Assembly: GCA_024692905.1 (NCBI GenBank)
Contig: JAILLY010000026.1
Location: 1 to 61,576 of the forward strand
Reading direction: 5' to 3'
Length of the DNA: 61,576 nucleotides
Source: Lachnospiraceae bacterium
GTDB taxonomy: Bacteria > Bacillota > Clostridia > Lachnospirales > Lachnospiraceae
Below are positions 7,526 to 42,127 of the stretch, in pieces (the stretch's first letter is position 1; the number at the start of each line of letters is the position of its first letter). The notes below the pieces were generated by a model. It worked only from the letters and a program-made list of their open reading frames with translations, was not told the origin of the DNA and did no database searches. A program made the translations under genes and the position numbers.

Positions 7526-9247
7526 ATGAATCCGAAATTTTTTGATGTAAAAAAGGAGAAGCAGGACGCGATAATAAACGCTGCGCTCATGGTATTTGCC
7601 GAGAACGGATACAGGAAGGCGAGTACGGATGTCATAGTTAAGGAGGCCGGAATAAGCAAGGGGCTCCTGTTCCATTATTTCATAAGCAAGAAGGGTGTTT
7701 ACGAATTCGTTTACGATTACAGCATCAAATATATGCTGTTGGAACTGACGCAGACGGTGCGGAAGGATGAAAAGGATTTCTTCTCGATCCAGCGTATGAT
7801 CGAACTTGCCAAGACAAGGGTCATGAAGAATTATCCTTACATGCAGCAGTTTTTAAGCAGCGCCAAGTACGAGACCCATCCCGACGCGCTCGGAGTCATA
7901 AAGGAATCGGAAGGCGTGATAGAGGATACTTATAATGGGATATATAAGAAAGCCGATATGTCGCGCTTCAGTTCACCGGTCGATCTTCATAAGATAACCA
8001 GACTTATCGGATGGATGTCGGACGGATATATAAAGGATAAGTTCAGGGACGGTACTCCCGATCTTGATGAGATGAACGCCGAGTTCGCGGGATATCTGTC
8101 CATGTTAAGGGATCATTTCTATAAGGATTCGGAAAAGCCCGAGGAAGATGTTGCCGCCGAGAGCATCACCGAGCGCGATGATTCGGTAATGGACAGCTTA
8201 AGAGAGGAAATGATGAACAGGCCTCAGCCCGAAGAGGAGAAGCCTGCCGCGAAGGAACCTGAGTTAAGTTTTGAGGAGCGTCTTGCGGCCGGAAGGAAAT
8301 CGGCTTATGATGCACTTGCAGCGGAAGATGAAGCCGTAACGGATGAAACCGAAGAACATATCGGGGAAGAGGAAGAGGCATCCGCAGAACCTGCGGCAGA
8401 AGAGAGCGCAGAGGTAAGACCGGAAGAGTCAGCAGATGACGCAGAGCCGGAAACCGTGACGTACGAAGAACCAGATGAGATACCGGAAGCGGCAGCTGAT
8501 GACCGTGAAGCGGAAGAAGAGACGGTGGCTGCGGATGACTCTGAGGCAGAAAATGAGATTGATTCAGCAAAACCCGCCGGGGAAGCTCCCGCCGAGGAGC
8601 CGGTTTCCGAAGAAGCTCCGGTTGAGGAAGAAGTTTCGGATGGCCCTTCCGAAGAGGAACAGGTAAAAGAAGAACAGACGGAAGAAGAACCTCATCATGA
8701 AGTGACCATCTCGGTTGATTACTTTGAGGGCGGTTATAAGGTATATGACGGAACGCAGGGAAGCATGGGAGATGAGACATATGCGGCATCGCCCACGGTC
8801 ACTTCCTATATACCGGCATCGGATCTGGCTTTCTACGAAGAATCAAGGCTTGGAGATTTCACATACGGATCGGATTCGCGCGGAGGAAGAGGCATTCCTT
8901 ATGACAGCAGCGAAAATATCCAGATATTTGTTACCGACGATGATGAAGGATCTGCCGAAACGACAGATGCGCTCCCGGATTTGGGCAATACGGAAGCGGC
9001 AGAGGAATCTTCGGATGAGCCGGATGTGAATACGGATAACGGTTTTGATATCTCGGATCTTTCCGAGAAGATCATGAGCAATACCGACAGGGAAACCGCT
9101 GAGGATGAAAGGAACAGGGAACTTGAGAAGATGGGACCGGCTCCCGTTCTCCCGGATTTCACTCCCGATAATGTAAAGAGACGGAATACATCGATCGATG
9201 AAGAAGACGAAGAAAACATGCATATCTACAGACCGCTCAAGTTCTAA
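7526..9247 (+). CDS. TetR-family regulator fused to a ~370-residue acidic tail
   Basis: Residues 1 to about 200 form a TetR regulator: helix-turn-helix VIVKEAGISKGLLFHYF after ALMVFAENGYRKAST, then the all-helical ligand domain to about residue 200. TetR proteins normally end there (180-220 aa). This one continues for about 370 residues, largely Glu/Asp/Ala/Pro (roughly 205-400), then a Gly/Ser/Tyr-containing section, and ends NMHIYRPLKF. The tail has no membrane segment or domain that I recognise and is probably disordered. Start ATG 7526 has GGGG at 7512-7515. Its last 50 nt overlap the start of the RNA methyltransferase gene in another frame. Target genes unknown; an inverted repeat upstream may be its operator. 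Confidence 0.88.
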   Translation: MNPKFFDVKKEKQDAIINAALMVFAENGYRKASTDVIVKEAGISKGLLFHYFISKKGVYEFVYDYSIKYMLLELTQTVRKDEKDFFSIQRMIELAKTRVMKNYPYMQQFLSSAKYETHPDALGVIKESEGVIEDTYNGIYKKADMSRFSSPVDLHKITRLIGWMSDGYIKDKFRDGTPDLDEMNAEFAGYLSMLRDHFYKDSEKPEEDVAAESITERDDSVMDSLREEMMNRPQPEEEKPAAKEPELSFEERLAAGRKSAYDALAAEDEAVTDETEEHIGEEEEASAEPAAEESAEVRPEESADDAEPETVTYEEPDEIPEAAADDREAEEETVAADDSEAENEIDSAKPAGEAPAEEPVSEEAPVEEEVSDGPSEEEQVKEEQTEEEPHHEVTISVDYFEGGYKVYDGTQGSMGDETYAASPTVTSYIPASDLAFYEESRLGDFTYGSDSRGGRGIPYDSSENIQIFVTDDDEGSAETTDALPDLGNTEAAEESSDEPDVNTDNGFDISDLSEKIMSNTDRETAEDERNRELEKMGPAPVLPDFTPDNVKRRNTSIDEEDEENMHIYRPLKF

Positions 9248-10652
9248 GCAGGATCTTCCCGCCGAATTCCTTGAGAGGATGAAGGATCTTCTCGGGGATG
9301 AGTATGAGGATTTCCTTTTAAGCTTAAACGAGCCGGAATATAAGGCGCTGCGCTTCAATCCGCTTAAGGCGGAAGAGGCGCAGCTTCTTGCGTTTATAAA
9401 TGAGATGGAAGGGTGTAGGGACTGCGCTGTCAGCATAGAACGTGAACCCGTAAAGTGGGAAAAAAGAGGATTTTACTACAGTGTGCCCGATGCCGGTCCC
9501 GCAGGTTCTCCCGTAAGGGGGCCGGGACTTCATCCGCTCCATGAAGCCGGAGCCTATTATATTCAGGAACCGAGTGCCATGAAGCCGGTGACGCTTATGG
9601 ATATAGGACCGGGGGAAACGGTGCTCGATCTGTGTGCGGCCCCCGGAGGCAAGTCAACGCAGATTGCCTCGGCTCTCATGGGAAGCGGCCTTCTTGTTTC
9701 CAACGAGTATATCCAAAAGAGAGCGGCGATACTGTCCTCGAACATTGAACGCATGGGGATCACGAACGCCGTGGTGATCAATGAAAGTCCGGAAAAAATA
9801 GGTAGCGCATTTGCCGATTTTTTTGATAAAATACTCGTGGACGCCCCCTGTTCGGGCGAAGGGATGTTCAGAAGGAGTGCGACGGCGGTTTCCGAATGGA
9901 GCGTTGATAACGTTCATATGTGTGCGCTGCGCCAGCGGGCCATACTTGACGAGGCCGTAAATGCCTTAAAGCCGGGCGGACGGCTTGTGTACTCCACATG
10001 CACATTTGAGCTTGACGAAGATGAGGGGCTCATTAAAGGCTTCCTTGAGGATCATCCTGAGTTAAAGCTTGTCATTAAGGAGAAGCTCTGGCCGCATAAA
10101 GTCAGGGGAGAAGGCCATTTCATGGCCGTACTTGATAAGGCGGGTAATGCCCATGACGGATATAACGTGCGTACGGGACGGCCTGTCACGCTTGATGATG
10201 TCCTTTGCGGAAAGATAAAGAAGTTTCCGGGAAATACAGACCTTGCCGGGTTCAACGTTTTTTTTGAGGAAAACTTAAGGCCTGACTGCCGGCTTGGGGG
10301 AGATGGATACCTTACGGTGTTTGGCAGCCGGCTGTATCTCGTTCCGCCCCAAATGACGGATCTTCGCGGACTTAAGGTATTAAGGCCGGGACTTGAACTG
10401 GGAACGTTTTTAAAGGGCCGTTTTGAACCGGCACATGCGCTTGCGATGGCCTTGTCGCCTGACGATACGGTCAATTCGTTATCACTTTCGTATGACGAGG
10501 CAAAGGCCTATCTGTCGGGACTTACTATCCCGTGCCGGGGAGCAAACGGATGGTATCTCATCTGTTACGACGGCATAAGTATGGGATGGGGCAAGTTGAG
10601 CGGAAACATCATGAAGAATCATTATCCGCGCGCACTTAGAAGAAACCTTTGA
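9198..10652 (+). CDS. RsmF-like rRNA (cytosine-5) methyltransferase, NOL1/NOP2/sun family
   Basis: SAM-dependent enzyme that makes 5-methylcytosine in rRNA. The 484-aa length fits RsmF-type proteins (about 450-480). Seen: SAM motif VLDLCAAPGGKSTQIA (about residues 140-155), DAPCSGEGMFRR with one catalytic Cys, and YSTCTFELDEDE with the second; the C-terminal third matches the RNA-binding extension of RsmF. The family start (LPAEFLERMKDLLG) is at residues 20-33, and the only usable start codon in frame upstream is the ATG at 9198, which overlaps the TetR gene by 50 nt. There is no strong ribosome site, so translation probably depends on the upstream gene. The exact target cytosine cannot be told from the sequence. 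Confidence 0.9.
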   Translation: MKKTKKTCISTDRSSSKQDLPAEFLERMKDLLGDEYEDFLLSLNEPEYKALRFNPLKAEEAQLLAFINEMEGCRDCAVSIEREPVKWEKRGFYYSVPDAGPAGSPVRGPGLHPLHEAGAYYIQEPSAMKPVTLMDIGPGETVLDLCAAPGGKSTQIASALMGSGLLVSNEYIQKRAAILSSNIERMGITNAVVINESPEKIGSAFADFFDKILVDAPCSGEGMFRRSATAVSEWSVDNVHMCALRQRAILDEAVNALKPGGRLVYSTCTFELDEDEGLIKGFLEDHPELKLVIKEKLWPHKVRGEGHFMAVLDKAGNAHDGYNVRTGRPVTLDDVLCGKIKKFPGNTDLAGFNVFFEENLRPDCRLGGDGYLTVFGSRLYLVPPQMTDLRGLKVLRPGLELGTFLKGRFEPAHALAMALSPDDTVNSLSLSYDEAKAYLSGLTIPCRGANGWYLICYDGISMGWGKLSGNIMKNHYPRALRRNL

Positions 10653-10680
10653 ATATTCATTTATTACCGGAGGATTTGGC

Positions 10681-11040
10681 ATGAATGAGACAGGAACAGT
10701 ATGCAGCTGCGGAAAGGAGCATGGCCAAATGGATATTTCCAAGCTCCTTGATGATATGCCTCCCGAAGAGGAGTTATATGATCTTGCCGATTTTTTTAAG
10801 ATATTTGCCGACTGTACGAGAGTACGCATCCTGTGTACGCTTCTGTACGGTGAGATGTGTGTGAGTGAGATAGGGGATGCGCTTGATATGACCCAGTCGG
10901 CGATATCCCACCAGTTAAGGGTATTGAAACAGGCTAAGCTCGTTAAGAACCGGAGGGAAGGCAAGACAATATATTACTCACTTTCCGACGGACATATAAT
11001 AAGTATTCTCTCTCAGGGGCTTGAGCATATCGAAGAATAG
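10681..11040 (+). CDS. ArsR/SmtB-family metal-responsive repressor
   Basis: A 119-aa winged-helix regulator. The recognition helix is in ALDMTQSAISHQLRVLKQA, and the wing in NRREGKTIYYSLSD. The last helix carries D-x-H, then H at +13 and E at +16 (SDGHIISILSQGLEHIEE), which matches the alpha-5 zinc site of CzrA/SmtB (D, H, H, H) except for the last ligand. In addition an N-terminal CSCGKEH and a Cys in GEMCVSE recall the alpha-3N thiolate site of CadC. The protein thus may bind zinc or a softer metal. No metal pump or chaperone is adjacent, so its targets are elsewhere. A GGAGGA ribosome site lies 10 nt upstream. Confidence 0.88.
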   Translation: MNETGTVCSCGKEHGQMDISKLLDDMPPEEELYDLADFFKIFADCTRVRILCTLLYGEMCVSEIGDALDMTQSAISHQLRVLKQAKLVKNRREGKTIYYSLSDGHIISILSQGLEHIEE

Positions 11041-11082
11041 TTATATTATAGTAGGCGAGGGACTAATTTAGGAGGGCATGTT

Positions 11083-11616
11083 ATGGTATCATGGGAACAG
11101 ATCAAAGGTAAGATATCCGACACAAATGACGTCATTGTCAGCAAAACGAGAGCATTTGCCGAATCCGTCAGGATCAAGGGAACCCTTAGCGATATGGAGA
11201 AGGACAGGGATAAGCTCTATTCGCAGTTGGGCAGGCTGTTTTACGAAGACCGTTACGGAAGGATGAAGGTCAAGACCATCGAGAAGAAGATTTCAGAGAT
11301 GCCTGACGAAGATCCCAAGAAGGGAATCCTTATTAAGGTCCTTGAACTCAAGCAGAGCGAGGTCGCTCTTGCGCAGATGGAATCGGAACGCAAGAGGCTT
11401 CTTGGATATATCAAATGTCCGGCCTGCGGTGCCGATGTTGCACCCGACTGTGAGTTCTGTATCGAATGCGGTGCCAGGATAAAGAGGGAAGAAGCCGTGA
11501 AGGAAGCCCCGGTGCCTGATGATGCCGCTGATGAAGAAGATATTATGTCTGATCCGGATAAGGATGAGGCTGATAATAAAGCAGATGATGCTAATAATGA
11601 GACTACGGAGGAATAA
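11083..11616 (+). CDS. Coiled-coil zinc-ribbon protein of unknown function
   Basis: A 177-aa soluble protein. Residues 1-105 are helical and rich in Lys/Glu (DMEKDRDKLYSQLGRLFYED, later EVALAQMESERKRLL), probably a coiled coil. A four-cysteine zinc ribbon follows at about residues 110-132 (CPACG, CIECG). The last 40 residues are acidic and low in complexity. ATG 11083 is preferred over the out-of-frame ATG at 11078, because AGGAGG ends 7 nt upstream. The next gene, also with a zinc ribbon, starts 2 nt after its stop, so the pair is translated together. Confidence 0.75.
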   Translation: MVSWEQIKGKISDTNDVIVSKTRAFAESVRIKGTLSDMEKDRDKLYSQLGRLFYEDRYGRMKVKTIEKKISEMPDEDPKKGILIKVLELKQSEVALAQMESERKRLLGYIKCPACGADVAPDCEFCIECGARIKREEAVKEAPVPDDAADEEDIMSDPDKDEADNKADDANNETTEE

Positions 11617-11618
11617 AC

Positions 11619-13529
11619 ATGTTTTGTACAAATTGCGGAACCCAATTAAAAGACGGCTCCAAGTTTTGCCATAAATGCGGGGCAAGATACGGCGATGATG
11701 CGGCGGATCAGGCTGTAAATGCGGCTGATAATACATCCGCTCCGGCTGATTCTCCCGTAAACGAAGCAAATACGGCACCTGTTTCCGAAACGCCCGTTCA
11801 GGACGCTGCGGCCCCTGAAGGAGCCGAAGGAACCGGTACATCCGAAGAAAAGACGTCGTTCTTTGATCAGACAACGGATAACGGAGCGGCTGCGGATACG
11901 GCTTCTCAGGACGGATATGACACTTACTTCGCTCCGAATTATGAGCCTAAGAAAAAGGGCAGCAGGAAGTTCCTTATAATCGGTGCGATCGCTGCGGCGG
12001 TGGTAGTTGCGCTTGTATGCTTCTTCTGCTCGAATACCTTTAAGCGGACCTTCTATAAGCCCGCAAAGTATTATGAGTATGTTGAGAAGAAGAACGCGCA
12101 CAGAAACCTTGATCAGGTTGCGGCATGGCTTGAACTGGCAGGCCTTGACGGCAAGGAGAATAAGACCATGGGAACGGAGGATTCATTCCAGCTTACCGTT
12201 TCCGATGATATCCTTGACTCGATCTCCGATATTGCCGGCGAGGATCTTGATTTCTTAAAAGAGATCTCTTTTTCGGGCCAGTCGACCATATATGATGATA
12301 AGCTCAGCGGCAATCTTAATCTGCAGCTTGGCTCAACGCAGATCGTTGCCATAAATGCGATAAGTGATGCAGGTGAAGATACAGTATACTTAAGGATCCC
12401 CGAGATCAGTGATGATTACCTCGGATTCAGGGTGGATAACCTTGAAGAGATGGTGGGCGGCAGGCCTTCTTATGATTCATTTAACGAGGAAGATCCCCTT
12501 GCGTATATGGATGTGATCAATAAACTTCCTCAGGCTGCAAAACTTACGAAGCTTGCGTCCAAGTATTCGGATATCGTATTTGAGAATATGGACGATGTCA
12601 AGAAGTCAAAGGACACTTTTGAGGCCGACGGAGTTAAGCAGAAGTGCTGGGTACTGACTGTCAAGTATGATTACAAGGATCTTAAGAAACTGGGCAAGAC
12701 TCTTGCTGCCGAGATCAAGAAGGATAAGGATCTTGAGTCGATCGTAAAGGATCTTGCAGAGAGCATGGATTATGACGGCGATGAAGCCTGGGATGAACTT
12801 GTTGAAGCAAGTGAGGAACTTGAGGATGCGCTTCCCTATCTTGCAGGACTTAAGATGAAGGTTTATGTTGACGGCAAGGGTCACGTGATCGGAAGGGAAA
12901 TAACCGGCGGTGAAGATTACGATGAGCTTACCGTTAAATACGGAAGGGCCATCCACGGCAGGGAATTCGGTGCAGTGTTCAGTGCCGATATTGACGGTGA
13001 CGGCGTAATGATCGAAGGCAGCGGCAAGAAGTCCGGTCAGAATTACTCAGGTGTTTTCACGTTCAGCGGCACCGATATCGACCCCTTTAAGATTACACTT
13101 AATTCCTTTGACCATAAGGCATTCAACAAGCAGAGACTTGTCGGGGAAATATCCGTTAAGCTTGAGGATTATGCGGATGAACTCGATCTTGATGATGTAG
13201 GACTTGAGATGCTTGAGGATTACAGCGTATTCCTTTCGGTAAACTCCAAGGACAAGTCGGCTTACGATATCGGCTTTAGAGTCTCTGACAATAAGACGGA
13301 TGCCATTGCACTGAATTATTCGTTCAAGAAGACCGGCGGATCAAAGATAAGCATTCCGACGGACGCGATCATGGTTGAGGAACCCGGCGATCTTAAGGAT
13401 TATCTTGAGGATGCCGACTTTGACAAGATAGCGGATAATCTTGAAAAGGCAGGTGTTCCCGAAAGCATCACGGAGTATATCGGCTACCTTAACCAGCTTG
13501 CCGATTACCTCGATTATTATGATTATTGA
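11619..13529 (+). CDS. Zinc-ribbon membrane protein with large extracellular domain
   Basis: A 636-aa protein. Residues 3-21 form a zinc ribbon (CTNCGTQLKDGSKFCHKCG); residues 25-110 are low-complexity Ala/Pro/Glu; one membrane segment lies at about 118-136 after KKKGSRK; about 500 residues follow outside the cell. The outer part is acidic, has several beta-like stretches and ends LNQLADYLDYYDY; no catalytic motif is seen. The layout, ribbon inside and sensor-like domain outside, is common in Firmicutes membrane proteins of unknown role. It lies 2 nt after the other zinc-ribbon gene and 17 nt before the ABC ATPase, so it may serve the transporter. Confidence 0.75.
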   Translation: MFCTNCGTQLKDGSKFCHKCGARYGDDAADQAVNAADNTSAPADSPVNEANTAPVSETPVQDAAAPEGAEGTGTSEEKTSFFDQTTDNGAAADTASQDGYDTYFAPNYEPKKKGSRKFLIIGAIAAAVVVALVCFFCSNTFKRTFYKPAKYYEYVEKKNAHRNLDQVAAWLELAGLDGKENKTMGTEDSFQLTVSDDILDSISDIAGEDLDFLKEISFSGQSTIYDDKLSGNLNLQLGSTQIVAINAISDAGEDTVYLRIPEISDDYLGFRVDNLEEMVGGRPSYDSFNEEDPLAYMDVINKLPQAAKLTKLASKYSDIVFENMDDVKKSKDTFEADGVKQKCWVLTVKYDYKDLKKLGKTLAAEIKKDKDLESIVKDLAESMDYDGDEAWDELVEASEELEDALPYLAGLKMKVYVDGKGHVIGREITGGEDYDELTVKYGRAIHGREFGAVFSADIDGDGVMIEGSGKKSGQNYSGVFTFSGTDIDPFKITLNSFDHKAFNKQRLVGEISVKLEDYADELDLDDVGLEMLEDYSVFLSVNSKDKSAYDIGFRVSDNKTDAIALNYSFKKTGGSKISIPTDAIMVEEPGDLKDYLEDADFDKIADNLEKAGVPESITEYIGYLNQLADYLDYYDY

Positions 13530-16664: not shown

Positions 16665-19160
16665 ATGATATACCAGACTTTAAACGGTACATGGCTTATC
16701 AATGAGAAGGGTTCGGAGGCTTATATCGAAGGTAAGGTTCCGGGCTCCGTTTTATCTGCGCTACTCATACAGCACAGACTGCAGGATCCGTTCTACGGAC
16801 TAAATGAGTATTCGGCAAGGGAATTATTCCGGAGTGATTTCTATTTCACACGTGAATTCGATGTTATGCCGGAGCTTCTGTCCCAGGAGCGGATATATTT
16901 ATGCTGTAAGGGCATAGATACTCTGTCCAAGATATATATAAACGATATGCCTATCGGACGTACCGAGAATATGCACAGGACATATTATTTCAACATTACG
17001 GGTTATCTGCGTCCTGTCGGAAACCGTATCACGATCGAGATCGATTCACCCCTTGATTATATTGAGAATATCCGGCCGGGGCTTAATAAGTCCGTACAAT
17101 ATGCACCGAGAGGATGCATGATGGGTAACCAGTATTTACGAAAAGCCCATTGTATGTTCGGATGGGACTGGGCCGCACAGCTTCCCGACTGCGGAATCTG
17201 GAGGAGCATAGACCTTGTCGGATACAGCTACATCAAACTTGATGAGGCTGAGATCATCCAGCATCATGACAGAGACAGCGTCAATCTTGAGATAAACGTC
17301 ACCGCGGAAGTGTTCAGGAAGGAGCCGTTCATAATCCAGGCCGAACTCATCACTCCGGACGGGCGTATAATGGCGATCACCGAGACAATGGTCGACGGGC
17401 AGTGTACCCTGAACATGGAGATCGAAAGCCCCAAGATATGGTGGCCGAACGGATTCGGAGAACACCCGTTATATACGGTAAGCGTTTACGCGCTTGATAT
17501 GAACGGCAACCAGTGGGACAGCAAGACATACAGGATCGGCTTAAGGACAATAACCGTAAGCCGTGAGGGAGATGAGTGGGGACGTGAATTCTGCTTCAGG
17601 GTAAACGGAGTCAAGATCTTTGCGATGGGCGCCGATTATGTGCCCGAGGATTCGATCTATTCGTTCATCACAAAGGAGAAGATCGATTACCTGCTCAAGG
17701 CCTGCGTGAGGAGCAACTTTAACATGCTCAGGGTCTGGGGAGGCGGTTACTACCCGTCGGATACCTTCTATGACCTGTGTGATGAATATGGTATAATAGT
17801 CTGGCAGGATCTGATGTTTACGTCCAACCTTTACGAGTTGAACGAGGACTTCCGCAAGAATGTCGAAGCCGAGATAACCGATAACCTTAAGCGCATCAGG
17901 ACCCATGCCTGCCTCGGTCTTATATGCGGTAATGATGAGGGCGAGTGGTCATGGACCGACCGCGATGAAGTAAGGATGCATTCCACCCAGCTTCGCTCCG
18001 ATTACCAGCGTTTGTTTGAAGAGATCTGCAGCGGCCTTGTGAGCACTTATGCGCCCATGACTTTCTATTGGCCGTCATCACCTTCAAACGGCGGCGGGTT
18101 CATGAACCCCAATGACGAGAATAACGGTGACTGTCATTATTGGGGAGTATGGCACGGACTTGAACCGGTCAGCGAGTACGATGAGCATGTTATGAGGTTT
18201 TGCTCGGGCTTCGGATTCATGGCTTATCCGTCCGTCAAGACGATCAAGTCATTTACGAAGGAATCCGACAGGAACGTTTTCTCCGAGGTTATGGAGAGTC
18301 ACTTAAAGGACGAGGGTGCCGGCGGAAAGATGCTCCAGTATCTGTCCACGGAATTTCTTTATCCCAAGGATTTTGAGAGCCTTTTGTATATAACCCAGAT
18401 AATGCAGGGACTTGCGGTCAAGAGGGCGGTTGAACATCTCCGCCGTAACAGGGGCCGGTGCATGGGTGCCCTGTACTGGCAGCTTAATGACTGCTGGCCC
18501 GTGACCTCATGGTCGAGTATCGATTATTTCGGACGATATAAGGCGCTGCAGTATATGGCAAAGAAGTTTTACGCCTCGGTAGCCGGATCGATAAAGCGTG
18601 AAGGAAATACCGTTTCGGTATACATCCAGAATGAGACCAGGGATATCGAAGTAAGGAGAGTCAAGGTCAGTCTCCAGACTTTCGAATTCCGTCTGCTGCA
18701 TGAGGTTGAGTATGAGGTTGAGATAAAACCGTTTGAGGCGGTAAAGGTATGTGAAGTCAACTATACTCCGTATATAGAGGGGCTTGAGAACCGCGTGTTC
18801 ATGGAAGCCAATTTCATCGATGAAGATGATAATGTCGTCCAGACGGAGACGGAAGTGTTCGTACCGTATAAGAGGCTCGCGCTTGATCTGTCCTCGATAT
18901 CGTACTCTGTTATAGAGCTTGTTGACGAATATGTTATAAGGATGATGTCGGGCGGATTTGCTGCATTTGTCGAGCTTGACTTAAAACAGGCGGACGCGAT
19001 ATTCTCGGATAATTTCTTCCATCTTACGAGTAAAAGGGAGAAGGCTGTGCGGCTTAAGAAATCCGATATAAGGTATCTTGCCTACGGTGCCCCCGAGATC
19101 CAGAACGGATATGAACTTGAGCAACAGCTTGTGATACGTTCGCTTAAGGATACGTTTTAG
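16665..19160 (+). CDS. GH2 beta-mannosidase-like protein with missing nucleophile
   Basis: An 831-aa protein with no signal peptide, laid out like GH2 beta-mannosidases: N-terminal jelly-roll (LNGTWLINEKG, GKVPGSV), RGCMMGNQYLRKAHCMFGWDW written here only as landmark positions around residues 150-170, immunoglobulin-like domain, TIM barrel and C-terminal beta domains. The acid/base Glu is present (GNDEGEW, E425). The nucleophile is expected in the family motif RFxSEFGFQSFPSxKT; here the matching stretch reads RFCSGFGFMAYPSVKT, with Gly515 in place of Glu. The 90-residue spacing to E425 fits the family. The protein may therefore be inactive as a retaining mannosidase, or act on or bind another glycan. 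The start has only a weak ribosome site. Confidence 0.85.
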   Translation: MIYQTLNGTWLINEKGSEAYIEGKVPGSVLSALLIQHRLQDPFYGLNEYSARELFRSDFYFTREFDVMPELLSQERIYLCCKGIDTLSKIYINDMPIGRTENMHRTYYFNITGYLRPVGNRITIEIDSPLDYIENIRPGLNKSVQYAPRGCMMGNQYLRKAHCMFGWDWAAQLPDCGIWRSIDLVGYSYIKLDEAEIIQHHDRDSVNLEINVTAEVFRKEPFIIQAELITPDGRIMAITETMVDGQCTLNMEIESPKIWWPNGFGEHPLYTVSVYALDMNGNQWDSKTYRIGLRTITVSREGDEWGREFCFRVNGVKIFAMGADYVPEDSIYSFITKEKIDYLLKACVRSNFNMLRVWGGGYYPSDTFYDLCDEYGIIVWQDLMFTSNLYELNEDFRKNVEAEITDNLKRIRTHACLGLICGNDEGEWSWTDRDEVRMHSTQLRSDYQRLFEEICSGLVSTYAPMTFYWPSSPSNGGGFMNPNDENNGDCHYWGVWHGLEPVSEYDEHVMRFCSGFGFMAYPSVKTIKSFTKESDRNVFSEVMESHLKDEGAGGKMLQYLSTEFLYPKDFESLLYITQIMQGLAVKRAVEHLRRNRGRCMGALYWQLNDCWPVTSWSSIDYFGRYKALQYMAKKFYASVAGSIKREGNTVSVYIQNETRDIEVRRVKVSLQTFEFRLLHEVEYEVEIKPFEAVKVCEVNYTPYIEGLENRVFMEANFIDEDDNVVQTETEVFVPYKRLALDLSSISYSVIELVDEYVIRMMSGGFAAFVELDLKQADAIFSDNFFHLTSKREKAVRLKKSDIRYLAYGAPEIQNGYELEQQLVIRSLKDTF

Positions 19161-19164
19161 AGGA

Positions 19165-19200
19165 GGGACCATTCTGCGAAGCAGAATTCAGGATGGTTCC
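19165..19200. repeat. Nested inverted repeat between the GH2 gene and rarA
   Basis: ATTCTGC-GAA-GCAGAAT forms a perfect 7-bp hairpin, enclosed by GGGACC / GGTTCC (one G-T pair). No T run follows, so it is not a typical terminator. It may stabilise the mRNA end or regulate rarA. Confidence 0.4.
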
Positions 19201-19249
19201 GACGACCGGCCGCCGACGTCAGGAGGGGGCATTTCATTATTGAGGTATT

Positions 19250-32831: not shown

Positions 32832-33395
32832 CTATCTGCTGCGGGTGATAAGGCGTACGAGCAGAGGAGTTGCGATCACTGCGACAGCTATGCCTATCGC
32901 AGCCTGGAGAAGGCTGAATGCAAGCCCTCCGGAAGCGTATATGACGGCCGATTGGACCGCTGAGCGGTTCAGCCGGCCGTTTTCGTATATGAAAGATATG
33001 GCGGAATAGATGAAGTATCCCGCCGCCATCACCGTTTCGCCAGCCGCACCCGAGACGGATACGTTGATATATGAATATCTGTCGGGGATATGGTTGCGCG
33101 TGAGAAGTTTATAACATACCGCGGTCGCGGTTGCCATTAAAGCCTTTATGACAAAAGTAGCCGGAGCTATATGCGAATAGCCGTTTATAAGATCTGAAAG
33201 AGCCGATCCCGCCCCCGCTGCAAGCGCACCGTATACCGGTCCGAACAGTATACCGCTCGCAAGGGCGAACCCGTCCCCCAGATTTACGTACCTGCCATCG
33301 GGAGTCGGGAGCTTTATCATCATGGTCGCTATACAGGTCAGTGCCGCAAGCAGCAGCATGCTGACTTTCTTTTCGGAACTGCTGAGTCTGTTCAT
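32832..33395 (-). CDS. ECF transporter S component
   Basis: A 187-aa membrane protein with five to six segments. The pattern KLPTPDGRYVNLGDGFALASGILFG... (quoted only in part), GAGSALSDLINGY and FVIKALMA is that of ECF-type substrate-binding S components, which capture vitamins or their precursors and share an energising module coded elsewhere. The substrate cannot be assigned; pyridoxine- or thiamine-precursor S components are the nearest by eye. No clear ribosome site precedes the first ATG, so the start may be later. No riboswitch is visible in the 73 nt before the gene. Confidence 0.8.
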   Translation of the reverse strand: MNRLSSSEKKVSMLLLAALTCIATMMIKLPTPDGRYVNLGDGFALASGILFGPVYGALAAGAGSALSDLINGYSHIAPATFVIKALMATATAVCYKLLTRNHIPDRYSYINVSVSGAAGETVMAAGYFIYSAISFIYENGRLNRSAVQSAVIYASGGLAFSLLQAAIGIAVAVIATPLLVRLITRSR

Positions 33396-33468: not shown

Positions 33469-34764
33469 ATGAAGCTTGTTCATATCAAACAGATCAGGGG
33501 CTCCAGGAGCCTGTACGGAACCTTTCTGTATATAACACTGTTCCCGCTCATACTGTTCGGGGTTGTACTTATGATATACAGTTCGGTCACTCTTACGCAA
33601 AATATCAGGGCTGAAGTAAGCAACAATCTACGCAATGTCGGTGTTGCGGTGCTGTCTGCATATGACGTGTCATATGAAGGCGATTATAATGTCATGATAG
33701 TCGACGGGAATGTGGAATTCTATAAGGGTGACACGTTTTTAAGCAATGATCATACATTGCTTGACAGCATAAAGAATGACACGGGAGTCGAGATATCGAT
33801 GTTCTTTTATGATACCCGTGTACTTACAACGATAACCGACGATACCGGCAGACGGTTTGTAAATACAGGAGCAAATGCGACCATATTGAATACCGTCGTG
33901 GGTAAGCGTACGAGCAGCTTCTTCAGCAATGTCTTTATCGGGAACGGGAGATATTTTGCTTATTATATGCCGATAATGAGCAAGGACGGACTTACGTGCC
34001 TCGGGATGATAGGTATGGCCACTCCGGCTGCCGGAGTAAGCACTATGGTCAGGAATTCCGTCATAAAGAATGTCCTTATAATGCTGTTGGCCCTCCTGGT
34101 GACGGCATGGTTCATTATGCATTTCTCTTCGGGTATCATCAGTATCATCAAGAAGATAATGAAGTTCTTATCCGAGATAGCCGAAGGCAATCTTTCGACC
34201 GAGCTCGATCCCATGGTCATTTCAAGACAGGATGAGATCGGTGAGATGGGAAGGCTTACCAATAAGCTTCGGGCATCACTGCGTAAGCTGATCGAGAGAG
34301 ATGCGCTCACCGGGATATATAACAGAAGATACGGTACCAAGAAGCTTGAGGAGATCATTTCCAGGGGAATACCCTATTCGGTAGCCATAGGTGATATCGA
34401 TTTCTTCAAGAAGTTTAACGATCAGTTCGGACATGATTGCGGCGATGCGGTGCTCATAGAAGTTGCCAAGACGCTTAGCGAGCATATGAGGAGCAGCGGA
34501 TTTGCCGCGAGATGGGGCGGTGAGGAATTCCTTCTCGTGTTTGAGAATATAAGCGGAATGTCCGCGACCGTAGCATCGGAGAGGCTCCTGGATGCGATCA
34601 GGGAACATCTTGTCGAGCATGAAGGCCAGTTCCATTTGGTCACCATGTCTTTCGGCGTGGTACAGGGGAGGCCGGAGCTTACCCTTGATGAAAACGTGAA
34701 TGCCGCGGACGAGAAACTGTATGAGGCCAAGGAAGGCGGAAGGAACCGCGTGGTCGGGGAATGA
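33469..34764 (+). CDS. Membrane diguanylate cyclase: Cache-type sensor, HAMP, GGDEF
   Basis: A 431-aa protein that should make cyclic-di-GMP from two GTP. Order: membrane segment (about 18-42), extracellular single-Cache-like sensor (about 45-200), second segment (about 203-223), HAMP linker (about 225-275), GGDEF domain with DALTGIYNRRYG, GDIDFFKKFND and the active-site variant GGEEF at 350-354. The GGEEF form is fully compatible with cyclase activity. The RxxD inhibitory site has lost its Asp (RSSG). First gene of an operon: the GH13 gene starts 14 nt after its stop. Confidence 0.92.
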   Translation: MKLVHIKQIRGSRSLYGTFLYITLFPLILFGVVLMIYSSVTLTQNIRAEVSNNLRNVGVAVLSAYDVSYEGDYNVMIVDGNVEFYKGDTFLSNDHTLLDSIKNDTGVEISMFFYDTRVLTTITDDTGRRFVNTGANATILNTVVGKRTSSFFSNVFIGNGRYFAYYMPIMSKDGLTCLGMIGMATPAAGVSTMVRNSVIKNVLIMLLALLVTAWFIMHFSSGIISIIKKIMKFLSEIAEGNLSTELDPMVISRQDEIGEMGRLTNKLRASLRKLIERDALTGIYNRRYGTKKLEEIISRGIPYSVAIGDIDFFKKFNDQFGHDCGDAVLIEVAKTLSEHMRSSGFAARWGGEEFLLVFENISGMSATVASERLLDAIREHLVEHEGQFHLVTMSFGVVQGRPELTLDENVNAADEKLYEAKEGGRNRVVGE

Positions 34765-34778
34765 CCGGGAGGTAGTTT

Positions 34779-36857
34779 ATGTATCATCAGCAGAGAGCGG
34801 TAGTACAGAGATGGGAACCCATAGATACGATAGCCGGATTTAAGGTAAGGCCGGGCCTGTTTGACAGGGCGGGAGCCAATTATATGTCCGGCGGAGTCAG
34901 TTTTACCGTTTATTCGGTGAATGCCACCTCATGTACCCTGTGTCTTTTTAAGCACCGTTCGGACAAGCCCTTTGCCAGGATTAAATATCCCGACAATTAC
35001 CGGATCGGGAAGGTTTTTTCCATGTTCGTATTCGACCTTGATATTGAAGATATCGAATATGCATACTGCTTCGACGGACCGTATGAACCCGAGAAGGGTC
35101 TTATATTTGACGAGGAACAGTATATCCTCGATCCGTATGCCCGTGCCGTTGCGGGTCAGAGCGTCTGGGGCGCCAAGTTCTCGGACGCGAAATTTTTTAA
35201 GGCCCGTGTCGTACATAATGACTTTGACTGGGGCGCCGAGGCATCACCTCATATAAGGATGCAGGATCTTATAATCTATGAGCTCCATGTCAGGAATTTC
35301 ACGATACATCCTTCGTCCGGAGTGGAAAATCCGGGAACGTTTGACGGGATACGCGAAAAGATACCGTATCTTAAGGAACTTGGCATAAACTGCGTTGAAC
35401 TCATGCCTGTATTTGAGTTCAATGAAATGCATAATTCCCGGGAGATAGACGGCAAGAAGCTTCTTGAGTGCTGGGGATATAACACTACCTGCTTCTTTGC
35501 GCCCAATACGGTATATGCGCACAGCGACGAATACAACCATGAGGGTAACGAATTAAAACGGCTTATAAAGGAACTCCACGACAACGGTATCGAGGTTATC
35601 CTTGACGTCGTGTTCAATCATACGGGAGAGGGGAACGAGAACGGTCCCTTCTTCTCATTCAAGGGACTTGACAACAATATATATTACATGCTGACTCCCG
35701 ACGGGAAGTATTATAATTTCAGCGGGTGCGGCAATACATTAAACTGTAACCATCCTATCGTCCAGCATCTTGTCAGGGAGTGCTTAAGGCACTGGACCAT
35801 CCATTACAGGGTCGACGGTTTCAGGTTCGATCTTGCCTCGATCCTCGGACGTAATGAAGACGGCTCACCCATGAGCAGGCCGCCTCTTATACAGAGCCTT
35901 GCTTTTGACCCCGCGCTCGGTGACATGAAACTTATTGCCGAGGCATGGGATGCCGGCGGACTGTATCAGGTCGGAAGGTTCCCGTCGTGGAACCGTTTCT
36001 CGGAATGGAACGGGATGTACCGTGATGATATGAGGAAGTTCCTTCGCGGTGATGATAATATGGCCGGCGCGGCGGCGATAAGGCTGACCGGGTCGCATGA
36101 TCTGTATCCTGAAAACATCGGAAGCAGAAATGCTTCGGTCAACTTCCTTTCCTGTCATGACGGATTTACACTTTATGATCTTTATTCATATAATGAGAAG
36201 CATAACGAGGCAAACGGATGGGACAATACGGACGGTGCCAATGACAATAACAGCTGGAACTGCGGCGTCGAGGGGCAGACGGACGATCCGGAGATAAGGA
36301 AGTTAAGGCACCGTATGGTAATGAACGCCTGCGTTGCCCTTATGATGAGCCGCGGGACTCCCATGTTCTATGCGGGTGATGAATTCGGAAATACGCAGTA
36401 CGGAAATAATAATGCCTACTGTCAGGATAATGAGGTATCATGGCTTGACTGGGATACGCTTAAGGCCAATTCAGATATATTCGAAGTGTTCAAGTTTATG
36501 ATAGCTTTCAGGAACAAGCATGTCGTGATACGAAGGAATCAGTCCAAATCCACGTATAACCTGCCCAAGGTAAGCAGTCACGGATATACTCCGTGGATGA
36601 ATGAGTACACCTGGGAGAGCAAACAGGTCGGCGTCATGTATGCCGGCAAGGTTGCGGGCAAGGATGATATCGTTTATGCATGTTTCAATTCATATTGGGA
36701 ACCGATCGAGATCACGGTGCCCGATATCCCGGGCCGTGACAGATGGGACGTCGTTCTTGATACCTACGCATATCCCGTCATCAAGAGAAAAAGGCTTACA
36801 TCACATAATTACACCATGGGACCGAGGAGTGCCATAGTATTGGAGTTCAAGGCATGA
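34779..36857 (+). CDS. Glycogen-debranching-type GH13 enzyme (isoamylase/GlgX-like)
   Basis: A 692-aa cytosolic enzyme that hydrolyses alpha-1,6 branches in glycogen or limit dextrins. N-terminal CBM48-like domain (about 20-160), then the GH13 barrel with all four motifs: DVVFNHTGEG, GFRFDLAS (nucleophile Asp), LIAEAWDAGG (acid Glu) and FLSCHDGFT. ELHVRNFT and CWGYNT are typical of GH13_11 debranching enzymes. No other glycogen gene is adjacent; instead it lies between a membrane diguanylate cyclase (14 nt upstream) and a kinase-REC-GGDEF protein (4-nt ATGA overlap downstream). The gene symbol glgX would fit but the GlgX/isoamylase choice is not settled. Confidence 0.92.
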   Translation: MYHQQRAVVQRWEPIDTIAGFKVRPGLFDRAGANYMSGGVSFTVYSVNATSCTLCLFKHRSDKPFARIKYPDNYRIGKVFSMFVFDLDIEDIEYAYCFDGPYEPEKGLIFDEEQYILDPYARAVAGQSVWGAKFSDAKFFKARVVHNDFDWGAEASPHIRMQDLIIYELHVRNFTIHPSSGVENPGTFDGIREKIPYLKELGINCVELMPVFEFNEMHNSREIDGKKLLECWGYNTTCFFAPNTVYAHSDEYNHEGNELKRLIKELHDNGIEVILDVVFNHTGEGNENGPFFSFKGLDNNIYYMLTPDGKYYNFSGCGNTLNCNHPIVQHLVRECLRHWTIHYRVDGFRFDLASILGRNEDGSPMSRPPLIQSLAFDPALGDMKLIAEAWDAGGLYQVGRFPSWNRFSEWNGMYRDDMRKFLRGDDNMAGAAAIRLTGSHDLYPENIGSRNASVNFLSCHDGFTLYDLYSYNEKHNEANGWDNTDGANDNNSWNCGVEGQTDDPEIRKLRHRMVMNACVALMMSRGTPMFYAGDEFGNTQYGNNNAYCQDNEVSWLDWDTLKANSDIFEVFKFMIAFRNKHVVIRRNQSKSTYNLPKVSSHGYTPWMNEYTWESKQVGVMYAGKVAGKDDIVYACFNSYWEPIEITVPDIPGRDRWDVVLDTYAYPVIKRKRLTSHNYTMGPRSAIVLEFKA

Positions 36858-39352
36858 GCAGGAAGACTGAGACAGGCAGACTACTGATGACTTTTGCGGT
36901 CTTTTTAAGCATTGTGTGCATATTTGTCGGCACGCTGCTTGTACGCGAGACCGGAAATATCTCTTCATATAATAAGATACTTATCGATCTTCAGGATGAT
37001 CATATCATTTATGTTCAGGTCGCAAGATATCTGCGCACAGGTTCCGATATACTCACCGAGGCGTGCAGGAATTATGTTATCACAGGCGACATTTCCGGCC
37101 TGGAAGCATATTACAGAGAGATAAACGAGGACAGGCACAGGGAAAAGGCCATGATGCTGCTGGCAGAGACCGGTTCCTTTGGTGATTCCTATGTTAAACT
37201 CGCCAAGGCCAAGCAGTATTCGGATGACCTGATGAACATAGAACTTCATGCAATGGCACTTACCGCCCTGGCTAACGGCCATTATGAAGGCGATCTTCCC
37301 GAGGAGATACTGTATTATGAGTTTGATCCGTACGAGGGATCCGTATCCGCCGATGAGCAGAAAAGGATGGCAGGTACGCTCGTATTCAGTAATACCTATG
37401 ATGGTTACAAGCAGAAGATATATAATAACTCCGATGCGTTCGTTGATGAGGAAATAAAGGATATAAACGCCAGATATGCATCGGTATCCGAGGAACTTAC
37501 GGCATCCGTCAGATACCAGAGGATACTGACATATGTCTTCGGAGGCCTTCTGCTTTCTACGATATTGCTTCTTATGAAGCTCAACTCAAGAAGCGTGGCC
37601 CGCGGAAAGCAGCTTGAAAAGTTAAACGACAGGCTCACGGAGCAGAAGGATGAATTGGTCCGTGCCAACCGTGAGGCCATCGAAGCCAACAATGCAAAGC
37701 ATACGTTCCTCACAAGGATGTCCGATGCGATACGGACCCCGATCAACAGGATAATAGCCGTCTCAGAGCGGGGAAACAGAAATCTGGACGATGCTGAGGA
37801 TACCGGGAGGTCCTTTGACCGGATAGAATCAAACGCCCGTATCCTGCTTGAACTCGTCAATGACGTCCTGACACTCGGACGCGGTGAGAACGGCATGGTC
37901 AAGATACAGAATGTACCGATAAATGTTGCCAATTTTGCAGGAAACTGCGCCGCGGTGATCAGGTCCCAGGTGACGGAAGCGGGGCTCTTTTATGAGGAGG
38001 ATATCGGCCTCATACTCCACCCGAACGTCGTAAGTGATGAACTGCACTTAAGACAGGCTCTGTTAAATATAGCGGATAATGCGGTCAAGTTCACTCCGAC
38101 CGGAGGCCGTGTGACTTTTCGCGTTTATGAGGAAATAGTAGTGGACAGTCAGGACGACAGAGCCGTATACTATTTCGAGATAGAAGATACCGGAGTCGGT
38201 ATGAGCGAGAAATACGTATCGCACATCTTCGAGAGCTTTACAAGAGAGGAAGAGGATGTGACCGGCAGCGGTCTCGGTATCGGAATGAGCATCACCAAGC
38301 GTTATATCGATCTGATGGGCGGTTCCATAAAGGTTGAAAGTGAGCTTAAAAAGGGAACCAAGGTCACGGTCAGGATGCCGTTCCAGATTTACAGAACGGA
38401 GGCTTCGGATACGGAAAATTCCGGAGATCTGAGGCTTTCCGGTTCGCATATCCTTATTGCGGAGGATAATGAACTTAATATGGAAAGCGCAAGGACCATG
38501 CTTATTGCCGAGGGAGCAGAGGTAACCCCGGCCGAGAACGGCATCGTTGCTTTAAGCCTGTTCAAATCATCGGAGGAGAACAGTATAGATGCGATACTTA
38601 TGGATGTTGCGATGCCCATGCTTGACGGACTGAGCGTCACGAAGGAGATAAGGGCAATGCAGCGTCAGGATGCGCAGTCTGTTCCGATCATAGGCATGGT
38701 TTCCGGAAACGATGAGAAAGAGTTAAAGATGCTGACCGAGTCGGGCATGAATGACTATATCTCCAAGCCCATAGACGTCAACCGGCTTGTAAAGACGCTG
38801 CTCAGCACCATGAAGAAACAGAGCAGCGACCTTGCCGAACAGCTTGAAAAGGCACTGAGGGACGCCAATACGGACGGCCTTACGGGGGTCAAGAACCGGA
38901 ATGCCTTCGAACTTGCGACTGCGAGGATAGATGTTGAGATAGGCAGTGAGGATCACGTTGAATTTGCACTTGTGGTATGTGATGTCAACGGACTTAAAGA
39001 GGTCAATGATAACGTCGGGCATGATGAAGGAAATAAGCTTCTTATAAATGCCTGCAGGCTTATCTGCCGCACCTTCAGCCATTCGCCCGTATTCAGGATC
39101 GGCGGGGATGAGTTTGTTGCGATCCTGCGTAATAACGATTATCTTATCAAGGACGAACTGGTCCGGGGAATAAAGGAACGGATGACTGCCGAAAACTACG
39201 ATCCGCTTGATTACAATAACGCATCATTTTCGATCGGCATGGCGGTTTACGATCCCGGCACGGACCTTGACTGCAATGACGTATTCAGGCGCGCCGACGC
39301 CCTTATGTATGAACATAAGAAGCAGATCAAGGGTGCGGATAATGTACGATGA
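36854..39352 (+). CDS. Hybrid sensor: degenerate histidine-kinase module, REC and GGDEF
   Basis: An 832-aa membrane protein. Order: segment at about 9-30, extracellular sensor about 32-220, second segment about 224-243, coiled coil, dimerisation/phosphoacceptor helix, ATPase domain, receiver, GGDEF. The phosphoacceptor motif is normally MSHEIRTP; here it is MSDAIRTP, so Asp291 replaces the His and Ala the next Glu. The ATP site is intact (DNAVKFT, DTGVGMS, GSGLGIGMS). The receiver has EDN, phosphoacceptor Asp584 (LMDVAMP) and SKP. GGDEF (750-754) is complete, without an RxxD site. It probably cannot autophosphorylate in the standard way but may sense ATP or be phosphorylated by another kinase. 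Starts within the GH13 stop codon. Confidence 0.9.
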   Translation: MSRKTETGRLLMTFAVFLSIVCIFVGTLLVRETGNISSYNKILIDLQDDHIIYVQVARYLRTGSDILTEACRNYVITGDISGLEAYYREINEDRHREKAMMLLAETGSFGDSYVKLAKAKQYSDDLMNIELHAMALTALANGHYEGDLPEEILYYEFDPYEGSVSADEQKRMAGTLVFSNTYDGYKQKIYNNSDAFVDEEIKDINARYASVSEELTASVRYQRILTYVFGGLLLSTILLLMKLNSRSVARGKQLEKLNDRLTEQKDELVRANREAIEANNAKHTFLTRMSDAIRTPINRIIAVSERGNRNLDDAEDTGRSFDRIESNARILLELVNDVLTLGRGENGMVKIQNVPINVANFAGNCAAVIRSQVTEAGLFYEEDIGLILHPNVVSDELHLRQALLNIADNAVKFTPTGGRVTFRVYEEIVVDSQDDRAVYYFEIEDTGVGMSEKYVSHIFESFTREEEDVTGSGLGIGMSITKRYIDLMGGSIKVESELKKGTKVTVRMPFQIYRTEASDTENSGDLRLSGSHILIAEDNELNMESARTMLIAEGAEVTPAENGIVALSLFKSSEENSIDAILMDVAMPMLDGLSVTKEIRAMQRQDAQSVPIIGMVSGNDEKELKMLTESGMNDYISKPIDVNRLVKTLLSTMKKQSSDLAEQLEKALRDANTDGLTGVKNRNAFELATARIDVEIGSEDHVEFALVVCDVNGLKEVNDNVGHDEGNKLLINACRLICRTFSHSPVFRIGGDEFVAILRNNDYLIKDELVRGIKERMTAENYDPLDYNNASFSIGMAVYDPGTDLDCNDVFRRADALMYEHKKQIKGADNVR

Positions 39353-39388: not shown

Positions 39389-42127
39389 ATGAGTAAGGAA
39401 CTGGCTAAGACTTATGACCCAAAGGACATGGAGCCGCGTATTTATAAGAAATGGCTCGACAAGGATTATTTTCATGCCAAGGCAGACCGGAGCAGGAAAC
39501 CGTTTACGATAGTTATCCCGCCTCCGAACATCACCGGTCAGCTTCATATGGGACATGCGTTTGACAATACGATGCAGGATATCCTTATCCGTTTTAAAAG
39601 GATGCAGGGATATAATGCACTCTGGCAGCCCGGATGCGATCATGCGAGCATAGCTACCGAGGTAAAGATCATAGAGAAGCTGAAGGAGGAAGGCATATCC
39701 AAGGAGGATTTAGGACGTGAAGGCTTCCTTAAGCGCGCATGGGAATGGAAAGAGGAATACGGCGGAAGGATCGTTGAGCAGCTTAAGAAGCTCGGCTCGT
39801 CCTGTGACTGGGAGCGTGAACGCTTCACGATGGATGAAGGCTGCAACAGGGCGGTCACCGAAGTGTTTGTAAACCTGTATAAGAAGGGTCTTATCTATAA
39901 GGGGAATAAGATCGTCAACTGGTGCCCTGTATGTCAGACGACCATATCGGATGCGGAGGTTGAGCATGAGGAGCAGGCGGGACATTTCTGGCATATCCGT
40001 TATCCCGTTGCAGGAACAAAGGAAGCAGCGGCCATGCTCGAGGGCAGGAAGTGTGAGTCCTTTGATGAAAGCAATTATGTTGTGGTCGCAACGACCCGTC
40101 CCGAGACAATGCTCGGCGATACGGCACTTGCCGTTAACCCGGAGGATGAGAGGTATTTAAAGATCATCGGGAAAACGGTCGTTCTTCCGCTTATGGATAA
40201 AGAGATACCCGTTATCGCGGATGAATATGTTGACAGGGAATTCGGTACCGGCGTAGTTAAGATAACACCGGCTCATGACCCCAATGACTTTGAGGTCGGA
40301 CTCAGGCATGATCTTGAAGTGATCAATGTTATGAACGATGATGCGACCATAAACGGCCTTGGCGGAAAGTATGAAGGCATGGACCGCTATGAGGCAAGGG
40401 AGCAGGTCGTTAAGGATCTTGATTCTCTGGGACTTCTGGTAAAGATAGAAGATCATTCCCATAATGTCGGAACGCATGACCGCTGCGGATGCACGATAGA
40501 ACCGATGGCAAAGGCTCAGTGGTTTGTAGCCATGGATGAACTTGCAAAGCCTGCGATCGAGGTCTTAAAGGCAACAAGGGAAGGACGTGAATGCAAATAC
40601 GGCGAGCTTAAGTTCGTGCCCGAGAGGTTTGACAAGACATATCTCCACTGGCTGGAAGGTATAAGGGACTGGTGTATCTCAAGGCAGTTATGGTGGGGCC
40701 ACAGGATACCCGCCTGGTACTGCCAGGACTGCGGAGAGACGATAGTAGCAAAGGAAGCACCGAAGGTATGTCCCAAATGCGGGAAGAGTCACCTTAAGCA
40801 GGATGAGGATGTGCTTGATACGTGGTTTTCATCGGCACTCTGGCCGTTTTCGACTCTCGGCTGGCCCGACAAGACGGAGGAACTTGACTATTTCTATCCG
40901 ACCGACGTTCTCGTTACCGGATATGATATCATTTTCTTCTGGGTTGTCCGCATGGTATTTTCGGGGATCGAACATACCGGACATTCACCGTTCCATACGG
41001 TTTTGATCCATGGCCTTGTACGCGATTCGCAGGGCAGGAAGATGAGCAAGTCGCTCGGTAACGGCATCGATCCGCTTGAAATAATCGATAAATACGGCGC
41101 AGACGCTTTAAGGCTCATGCTCATGACCGGAAATGCTCCCGGAAACGATATGCGTTTCTATTATGAGAAGGTCGAGGCGTGCCGTAATTTTGCAAACAAG
41201 GTATGGAATGCGTCACGTTTCATAATGATGAACTTAAGCGGTGACATTAAGGAGCCTTCGCCGTCCGATCTCGAACCGGTCGACAAGTGGATCGTAAGCA
41301 GGCTCAACACGGTCGTTCGTGATGTGACCGATAATATGGAAAAATACGAGCTTGGCATTGCGGTCGGCAAGATATATGACTTTATCTGGGATGAATTCTG
41401 TGACTGGTATATTGAAATGGTCAAGCCGAGGCTGTATAATTCAGACAATGCGGTTTCAAAGAACGCGGCCCTTTATACGCTTAAGTCAGTCCTTACCGAT
41501 GCTCTCAAGCTCCTTCATCCCTATATGCCGTTCATCACGGAGGAGATATACTGCACGCTTAAGGGAAGTGAAGATGAAAGTATAATGATATCTTCATGGC
41601 CCGTGTATTCCGAAGATAAGGTGTTTGCAAAGGAAGAGAAGGCGATCGAGACCATAAAGGAAGCAGTCCGGGGCATACGTAACGCACGTACCGGAATGAA
41701 TGTTCCGCCTTCCAAAAAGGCACATGTATATGTGGTAACCGATGATGAGGAGATAAGGACGACATTCGAAGAGGGCAGGCTGTTCTTTGCTTTTCTTGCC
41801 TATGCTTCGGAAGTGACCGTGCTTGGTACGGACGCACCGGGTCAGGCGGATCCTGCCGATAATGAATCGGTATCGGTCGTTATCCCGGGAGCGAACATTT
41901 ACATACCGCTTACGGAGCTGGTTGACATAACTCAGGAGATCGAGCGCCTCAAGAAAGAAGAGGCTCGTTTGAACGGTGAACTCAAGCGTGTGAACGGTAT
42001 GCTCGGAAACGAGAAGTTCATAAGCAAGGCACCTGCGGCAAAGATCGAAGAAGAGAAGGCCAAGCTCGAAAAATACACTCAGATGATGGAACAGGTACGT
42101 GAGCGTCTGGCGCAGTTAAGTAAGTAA
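39389..42127 (+). CDS. valS: Valyl-tRNA synthetase
   Basis: Charges tRNA-Val; 912 aa, class I. Seen: HIGH-type motif in [16 protein letters not shown], an editing domain with [19 protein letters not shown] and the zinc-binding CxxC pairs (CQDCG, CPKCG, around residues 448-470), [12 protein letters not shown], and a C-terminal coiled coil ([21 protein letters not shown] region). GAGGAG precedes the ATG. The 36-nt gap to the kinase gene is too short for a T-box, so this gene seems to be read from upstream. Confidence 0.97.

Follow-up and report, generated by a model that had tools for sequence, protein, structure and literature searches.

Contig JAILLY010000026.1 of a Lachnospiraceae bacterium (GenBank assembly GCA_024692905.1) carries a gene for a GlgX-type debranching enzyme, flanked on its own strand by genes for two predicted diguanylate cyclases—DGC1 upstream and HK-DGC2 downstream—and followed by the valyl-tRNA synthetase gene valS. 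Positions 1 to 61,576 of this contig form the window analysed here (61,576 nt). The triplet is a real, clade-specific and selected feature, but it did not arise as a single ancient operon: DGC1 is the older neighbour, while GlgX and HK-DGC2 belong together as a genuine pair. With moderate confidence, we read the pair as a co-expressed cassette that entered the space between DGC1 and valS once and has since stayed there under purifying selection.

Conservation of the triplet

Three plus-strand open reading frames (ORFs) bear out the gene order DGC1, GlgX, HK-DGC2 given in an earlier note on this DNA. According to the ORF list and our reading of the sequence, 14 nt separate DGC1 from GlgX, and the GlgX stop codon overlaps the HK-DGC2 start by 4 nt (ATGA). 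The note had also staked its case on this order being kept in related genomes, and so it is: among 37 genomes of the genus, our own included, close orthologues of the triplet GlgX (78–90% identity) occur in 10 of the 36 others, and in all ten DGC1, GlgX and HK-DGC2 follow one another as they do here, on one strand. Nine of these ten relatives are recorded as Lachnospiraceae metagenome-assembled genomes or uncultured Lachnospiraceae, with goat rumen given for two.

Across all eleven triplets, the three genes share a strand, with −4 to 43 nt between GlgX and HK-DGC2 and 2 to 115 nt between DGC1 and GlgX. In three genomes (G013, G023 and G021) HK-DGC2 is split by a contig end, and its remaining piece lies on another contig, adjoining valS. 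HK-DGC2 orthologues and triplet GlgX are found together in 11 of the 37 genomes and apart in none. Ratios of non-synonymous to synonymous substitution rates (dN/dS) ran from 0.03 to 0.12 over the three genes (12 pair comparisons, four pairs per gene)—0.06–0.12 for HK-DGC2 and 0.03–0.08 for DGC1 and GlgX—although the values for pairs of the window with G013 are rough, as dS there is 1.9–2.6. GGDEF genes make up about 1% of genes if the genome has some 2,500, which is an estimate, yet both flanks of GlgX are GGDEF genes; given that rarity and the order kept in ten of ten further genomes, this flanking exceeds chance.

Origin of the gene pair

Full-length relatives of DGC1 (E ≤ 1e-60, 43–100% identity) were detected in 34 of the 37 genomes. 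Among 23 DGC1 loci without the triplet, two (L087 and L108) end at DGC1; in 16 of the 21 that can be read onward, valS follows directly on the same strand, and in the other five (L088, L102, L104, L106 and L107) it does not. In triplet genomes, valS comes after HK-DGC2 in 10 of 11 cases. Because DGC1 and valS are neighbours in most non-triplet loci, while valS follows HK-DGC2 in nearly all triplet ones, GlgX and HK-DGC2 appear to have been inserted between the members of an older pair. Triplet genomes form a single clade both in the DGC1 tree (34 rows; support 99/98) and in the valS tree (21 rows, seven of them from triplet genomes with a usable valS; support 100/99), and the two genes apparently entered together and once.

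The placing of a Cache-GGDEF cyclase gene directly 5′ of valS is in its own right an arrangement found across the genus, with a 4-nt overlap in L086. Two sister genomes, G016 and G019, have a gene for a polyphosphate:AMP phosphotransferase (TIGR03708) before DGC1 and valS (L086:332-1837 and L089:210-1676), and in G007 the gene after DGC1 (L106:3419-5941) encodes a hybrid kinase that carries an Fe-only hydrogenase domain together with 4Fe-4S sites. Besides a promoter-like sequence, the gaps between HK-DGC2 and valS in G008 and G032 (L052:11389-11531 and L051:4700-4853) contain a strong hairpin, perhaps a valS leader.

Locus architecture and genomic context

Features of the locus are collected in Table 1. 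No terminator-like sites were found on the plus strand at the DGC1/GlgX and GlgX/HK-DGC2 junctions of the window. A promoter scan returned 17 sites against 15.3 in shuffled sequence, which is no excess, and Rfam at gathering thresholds gave no c-di-GMP-I riboswitch (a sensor of cyclic di-GMP, c-di-GMP) in the window.

Table 1. Genes and sites at the DGC1–GlgX–HK-DGC2 locus, in window coordinates.
Feature	Position	Strand	Description
ECF-type riboflavin transporter S component (ECF_S)	32832..33395	-	Divergent; upstream boundary of the unit
DGC1	33469..34764	+	431 aa; membrane diguanylate cyclase; two hydrophobic regions; sCache_3_3 33739-34056; GGDEF domain 34297-34749
GlgX-type debranching enzyme (GH13)	34779..36857	+	692 aa; CBM48 and catalytic alpha-amylase barrel; no hydrophobic segment
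HK-DGC2	36854..39352	+	832 aa; extracytoplasmic sensor flanked by two hydrophobic segments; HisKA 37697-37894, HATPase_c 38036-38386, REC 38450-38800, GGDEF 38864-39328
HK-DGC2 codon 291 (Asp)	37724..37726	+	Occupies the phospho-acceptor His position; MSDAIRTP
valS	39389..42127	+	36 nt 3′ of HK-DGC2; ancestral next gene after DGC1

That no further glycogen gene lies close by, as first noted, holds for the ten proteins scanned with Pfam (26.9–43.8 kb of the window), in which GlgX is the only GH13 member. The genome (2.62 Mb in 137 contigs, 92% complete) carries other glycogen genes on separate contigs: glgA on C23, glgC and a second glgC-like gene on C16, and a second GlgX gene, cut by the contig end, on C137. 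A genome-wide search placed further GH13 genes on C129, C18, C102 and C19. Matches across the genome comprised 25 GGDEF, 12 EAL and 4 PilZ domains and one c-di-GMP-I riboswitch, on contig C42; the EAL and PilZ matches show the usual c-di-GMP toolkit.

The debranching enzyme

TIGR02100 (glgX) is the best fit to the triplet GlgX, scoring 639.7 bits over residues 30–688, slightly under the curated cut-off of 640.9, and 636.7 bits in a second search; we take the protein to belong to subfamily GH13_11. Its catalytic triad, D351/E388/D461 (D342, E378 and D450 in Streptomyces venezuelae), is conserved in all eleven orthologues, and the gene probably aids the breakdown of stored glycogen.

For the GlgX tree (47 rows, with a long-branch warning for the outgroup rows against the rest) we took in 12 of 71 named loci and 24 of 30 further loci, both sets being described below. 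Triplet GlgX proteins form one clade (100/100), separate from the genus’s other GlgX type, which is represented by the genome’s own paralogue and by G002, G004, G006 and G016; that type is therefore unsupported as their source. Their nearest relatives, with moderate support (92/90), are from Lachnospiraceae NC2004 and Lachnospira sp. RGIG8763, a placement suggesting that the gene either was gained from outside or is an old paralogue.

The sensor cyclase and its kinase module

The active-site motif is GGEEF in all eleven DGC1 proteins and GGDEF in all eleven HK-DGC2 orthologues, and by these motifs both proteins should be active diguanylate cyclases. On our alignment reading, the RxxD inhibitory site is absent from both at what we take to be its usual position, where DGC1 has RSSG.

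HK-DGC2 is probably dead as a kinase. The phospho-acceptor His of its H-box is replaced by Asp, Asn or Gly in all eleven orthologues, whereas five of five non-orthologous kinases checked keep it (MSHEIRTP or MSHDIRTP); the receiver Asp is retained throughout (ILMD(V/I)AMP). Within the HATPase domain, all nine rows that span the G1 box keep it, two of 10 (G023 and G027) have His in place of the N-box Asn, and the G2 box is unevenly kept. It is very improbable that the protein is a normal hybrid kinase autophosphorylating on another His—a sub-question rather than an alternative to the readings weighed below. That option has been raised for Caulobacter CCNA_03265 (PMC11481889), whose kinase domain likewise lacks the conserved His and keeps the receiver Asp; but no other conserved His was present near the H-box in the ten aligned orthologues that cover it, and the altered N-box and uneven G2 box fit lost catalysis. 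HK-DGC2 differs from CCNA_03265, as described there, in having a GGDEF domain after the receiver and, in the window, a GlgX gene overlapping its start.

The sensor domain is predicted to be all-helical (pLDDT, the predicted local distance difference test, 86). Foldseek returned no match to it at E ≤ 0.001, and many of the top rows were unrelated long-helix proteins; the most plausible sub-threshold rows were the Adeh_2942 periplasmic sensor (4k0d) and LytS-N (5xsj and 5xsd). Among 298 other family genomes, with the three best candidates per genome scored, no full-length relative of HK-DGC2 reached E ≤ 1e-90, although three partial matches to its kinase–REC part were found. A profile of the sensor alone matched in 63 of 295 genomes, a total that includes clade members. 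In the 34 non-triplet stretches that were fetched, the protein bearing this sensor is a sensor-GGDEF protein, mostly 447–480 aa long. These proteins (the A2 family, about 450–480 aa) share with HK-DGC2 a homologous extracytoplasmic sensor and a membrane-anchored GGDEF domain, and HK-DGC2 differs in having HisKA, HATPase and REC domains between the two. This sensor-GGDEF family (L214-L265) is widespread in the Lachnospiraceae.

GlgX neighbourhoods outside the clade

The best 80 of 441 GlgX relatives were kept for a neighbourhood survey, nine from the clade and 71 from other named loci; for 60 of the 71, flanks of 1.5 kb or longer are available on each side, and the other 11 are short on one side, where a neighbour could be missed. 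With flanks of up to 7 kb, none of the 71 has a GGDEF gene adjoining GlgX, and a GGDEF ORF appears anywhere in the flanks of only two (L119, at 3.7 kb; L120, at 1.25 and 2.7 kb). Ordinary GlgX proteins of Lachnospiraceae and gut Clostridia in this set, such as those of Faecalicatena orotica (L123) and NC2004 (L118), belong to the same family as the triplet enzyme (59–65% identity) and differ from it in this missing neighbour. A wider rule placing GlgX beside GGDEF genes is not supported by these loci; since the arrangement is limited to one clade, it is not a rule of the Lachnospiraceae.

We also inspected 30 further loci (L056-L085), comprising 29 from 28 other genomes together with the genome’s own paralogue (L077); 20 of the 30 have 1.5 kb on both sides. 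Five contain a GGDEF ORF: L070, where it adjoins GlgX on the same strand, 204 nt upstream; L066 and L072, on the opposite strand at 214 and 800 nt; L073, at 5.3 kb; and L077, at 13.6 kb.

Two of these were considered as independent support and rejected. The GGDEF protein of L072 (G002) bears the HK-DGC2 sensor domain, but it is the only one of the 34 sensor-GGDEF stretches with a glycogen gene nearby, and the link is therefore probably chance: in the other 33, some of which are cut by contig ends, no relative of the window genome’s GlgX, other GH13 enzymes, GlgA or GlgC lies within four genes on either side. The L070 GGDEF domain is the best match to that of HK-DGC2 (127 bits), but this GGDEF subfamily is general and near-equal scores occur elsewhere—112–115 bits for two other GGDEF proteins of the window’s own genome, on C26 and C42, and 114 for one in G018—so that this case, too, looks like chance. 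In L070 (G088; 7632-12619), a gene resembling those for sugar-binding proteins, the GGDEF gene and GlgX stand consecutively on one strand.

Proposed mechanism

We know of no paper on a DGC1–GlgX–HK-DGC2 operon from a literature search limited to open-licence papers. In the scheme that we infer, for co-transcription, enzyme activities, signal flow and physiological link alike, a two-gene cassette of a clade-specific GlgX and the sensor-cyclase HK-DGC2 would have been inserted once between DGC1 and valS and retained since by purifying selection. Its genes are most likely co-transcribed, and wherever GlgX and HK-DGC2 overlap, their translation would be coupled as well; the capacity for debranching would then increase in step with c-di-GMP synthesis. 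The helical-bundle domain of HK-DGC2 most likely detects a cue outside the cytoplasm, and this cue would be relayed through the His-less kinase module to REC and GGDEF, either by conformation or through phosphorylation of REC by a different kinase acting in trans.

Of the possible kinds of coupling, co-expression fits these data best; a functional tie between c-di-GMP and glycogen is for now an inference. The earlier note had tied storage-polysaccharide breakdown to c-di-GMP through two extracellular inputs, and part of this survives. The gene order, the overlap and their conservation in close relatives hold, and two of the proteins are indeed membrane-bound, both with a domain predicted to lie outside the cytoplasm. 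DGC1, on the other hand, has a longer-standing association with valS across the genus and may precede GlgX for no functional reason; the label of hybrid kinase does not suit a protein without its phospho-acceptor His; and the tie between GlgX and c-di-GMP is conjectural, with no clear sign in the sequence that GlgX reads the nucleotide. A neighbourhood search of the kind suggested there gave a divided answer, the order being kept in the clade but seen in none of the 71 named loci outside it.

A clade that keeps GlgX with a sensor-cyclase of its own offers a testable case in which c-di-GMP and glycogen could be linked through operon structure rather than ligand binding. HK-DGC2 in turn provides a case of a His-less kinase module conserved ahead of REC-GGDEF, which bears on how receivers are driven without a kinase of their own.

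Competing explanations

GlgX might itself be activated by c-di-GMP, as in S. venezuelae, with two cyclases feeding a local pool that switches on debranching; we consider this unlikely. The S. venezuelae enzyme (Vnz29170, PDB 7u39), also a GlgX-type GH13 protein with the same catalytic triad, requires c-di-GMP for activity and was, as of 2022, the sole debranching enzyme known to bind it; the link there is by ligand binding and not by an operon with cyclases, so far as the available part of PMC9530166 goes. Two cyclase genes flanking GlgX, and two GlgX-type proteins in the genome, as in S. venezuelae (the second being cut by a contig end), fit this idea. The binding site does not. Over the residues compared (R31, E47, R49, D52, R56, Q433, G436 and R438), E47 has no aligned residue, leaving the N-domain motif E47-x-R49-x6-R56 incomplete; R31, also in the N-domain, is Ser, Gly or Ala in all eleven triplet proteins; and the partner-subunit contacts have changed in all eleven (Q433 to Pro, G436 to Ile or Val, R438 to Ser, Gly or Asp). 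R49 is matched by Arg in nine of eleven, and R56 by Arg or Lys in all, if a 9-residue gap is accepted; with that gap in place, every member has Lys or Glu at D52. In a larger GlgX alignment, this stretch follows a family-wide pattern, and nearly all the relatives concerned are without a GGDEF neighbour, so the match is probably spurious. We conclude from these residues that the known Streptomyces site is to all appearance absent from triplet GlgX. Direct allostery through it is unlikely, because its residues are mostly replaced or unaligned. It is a long shot that HK-DGC2 acts locally on the co-encoded GlgX: a His-less module that still binds ATP in most members would gate GGDEF output by energy state, GlgX would serve as its partner or effector by way of a contact or a c-di-GMP site different from that of Streptomyces, and glycogen would be debranched when an external cue meets a low energy state.

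Several observations weigh against a co-expressed cassette. With one origin, the eleven triplet genomes count as a single event. The surrounding clpB, ECF_S, valS and TPR genes are likewise syntenic in most clade members, which makes order conservation alone weak evidence for function. Promoter-like sequence, read by eye, stands in the HK-DGC2/valS gap of G008, G032 and G011, so that valS can be separate, and in G008, G026 and G032 the DGC1–GlgX gap exceeds 100 nt and could hold a promoter of GlgX’s own. A rival view is that GlgX and HK-DGC2 came to lie between DGC1 and valS by chance, with no functional link, and that general synteny has held the order. The single origin, the syntenic flanks of most members, the wide spread of the sensor family, its near-total separation from glycogen genes outside the triplet and the 71 named GlgX loci without an adjoining GGDEF gene point that way. 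Even so, we regard an accidental placement as possible but doubtful. GlgX and HK-DGC2 are never found apart in the genus, and their spacing has stayed within −4 to 43 nt while HK-DGC2 orthologues have diverged to 53% identity. In G026 (L048) the triplet is intact though ECF_S and valS no longer adjoin it; because its flanks have changed, this is the only genome that separates retention of the triplet from general synteny.

Other features of the window

Elsewhere in the window, positions 4580-7330 encode another GGDEF-EAL protein, and a GA-cis RNA (RF02987) was identified at 19158-19240 with a score of 66.3 bits.

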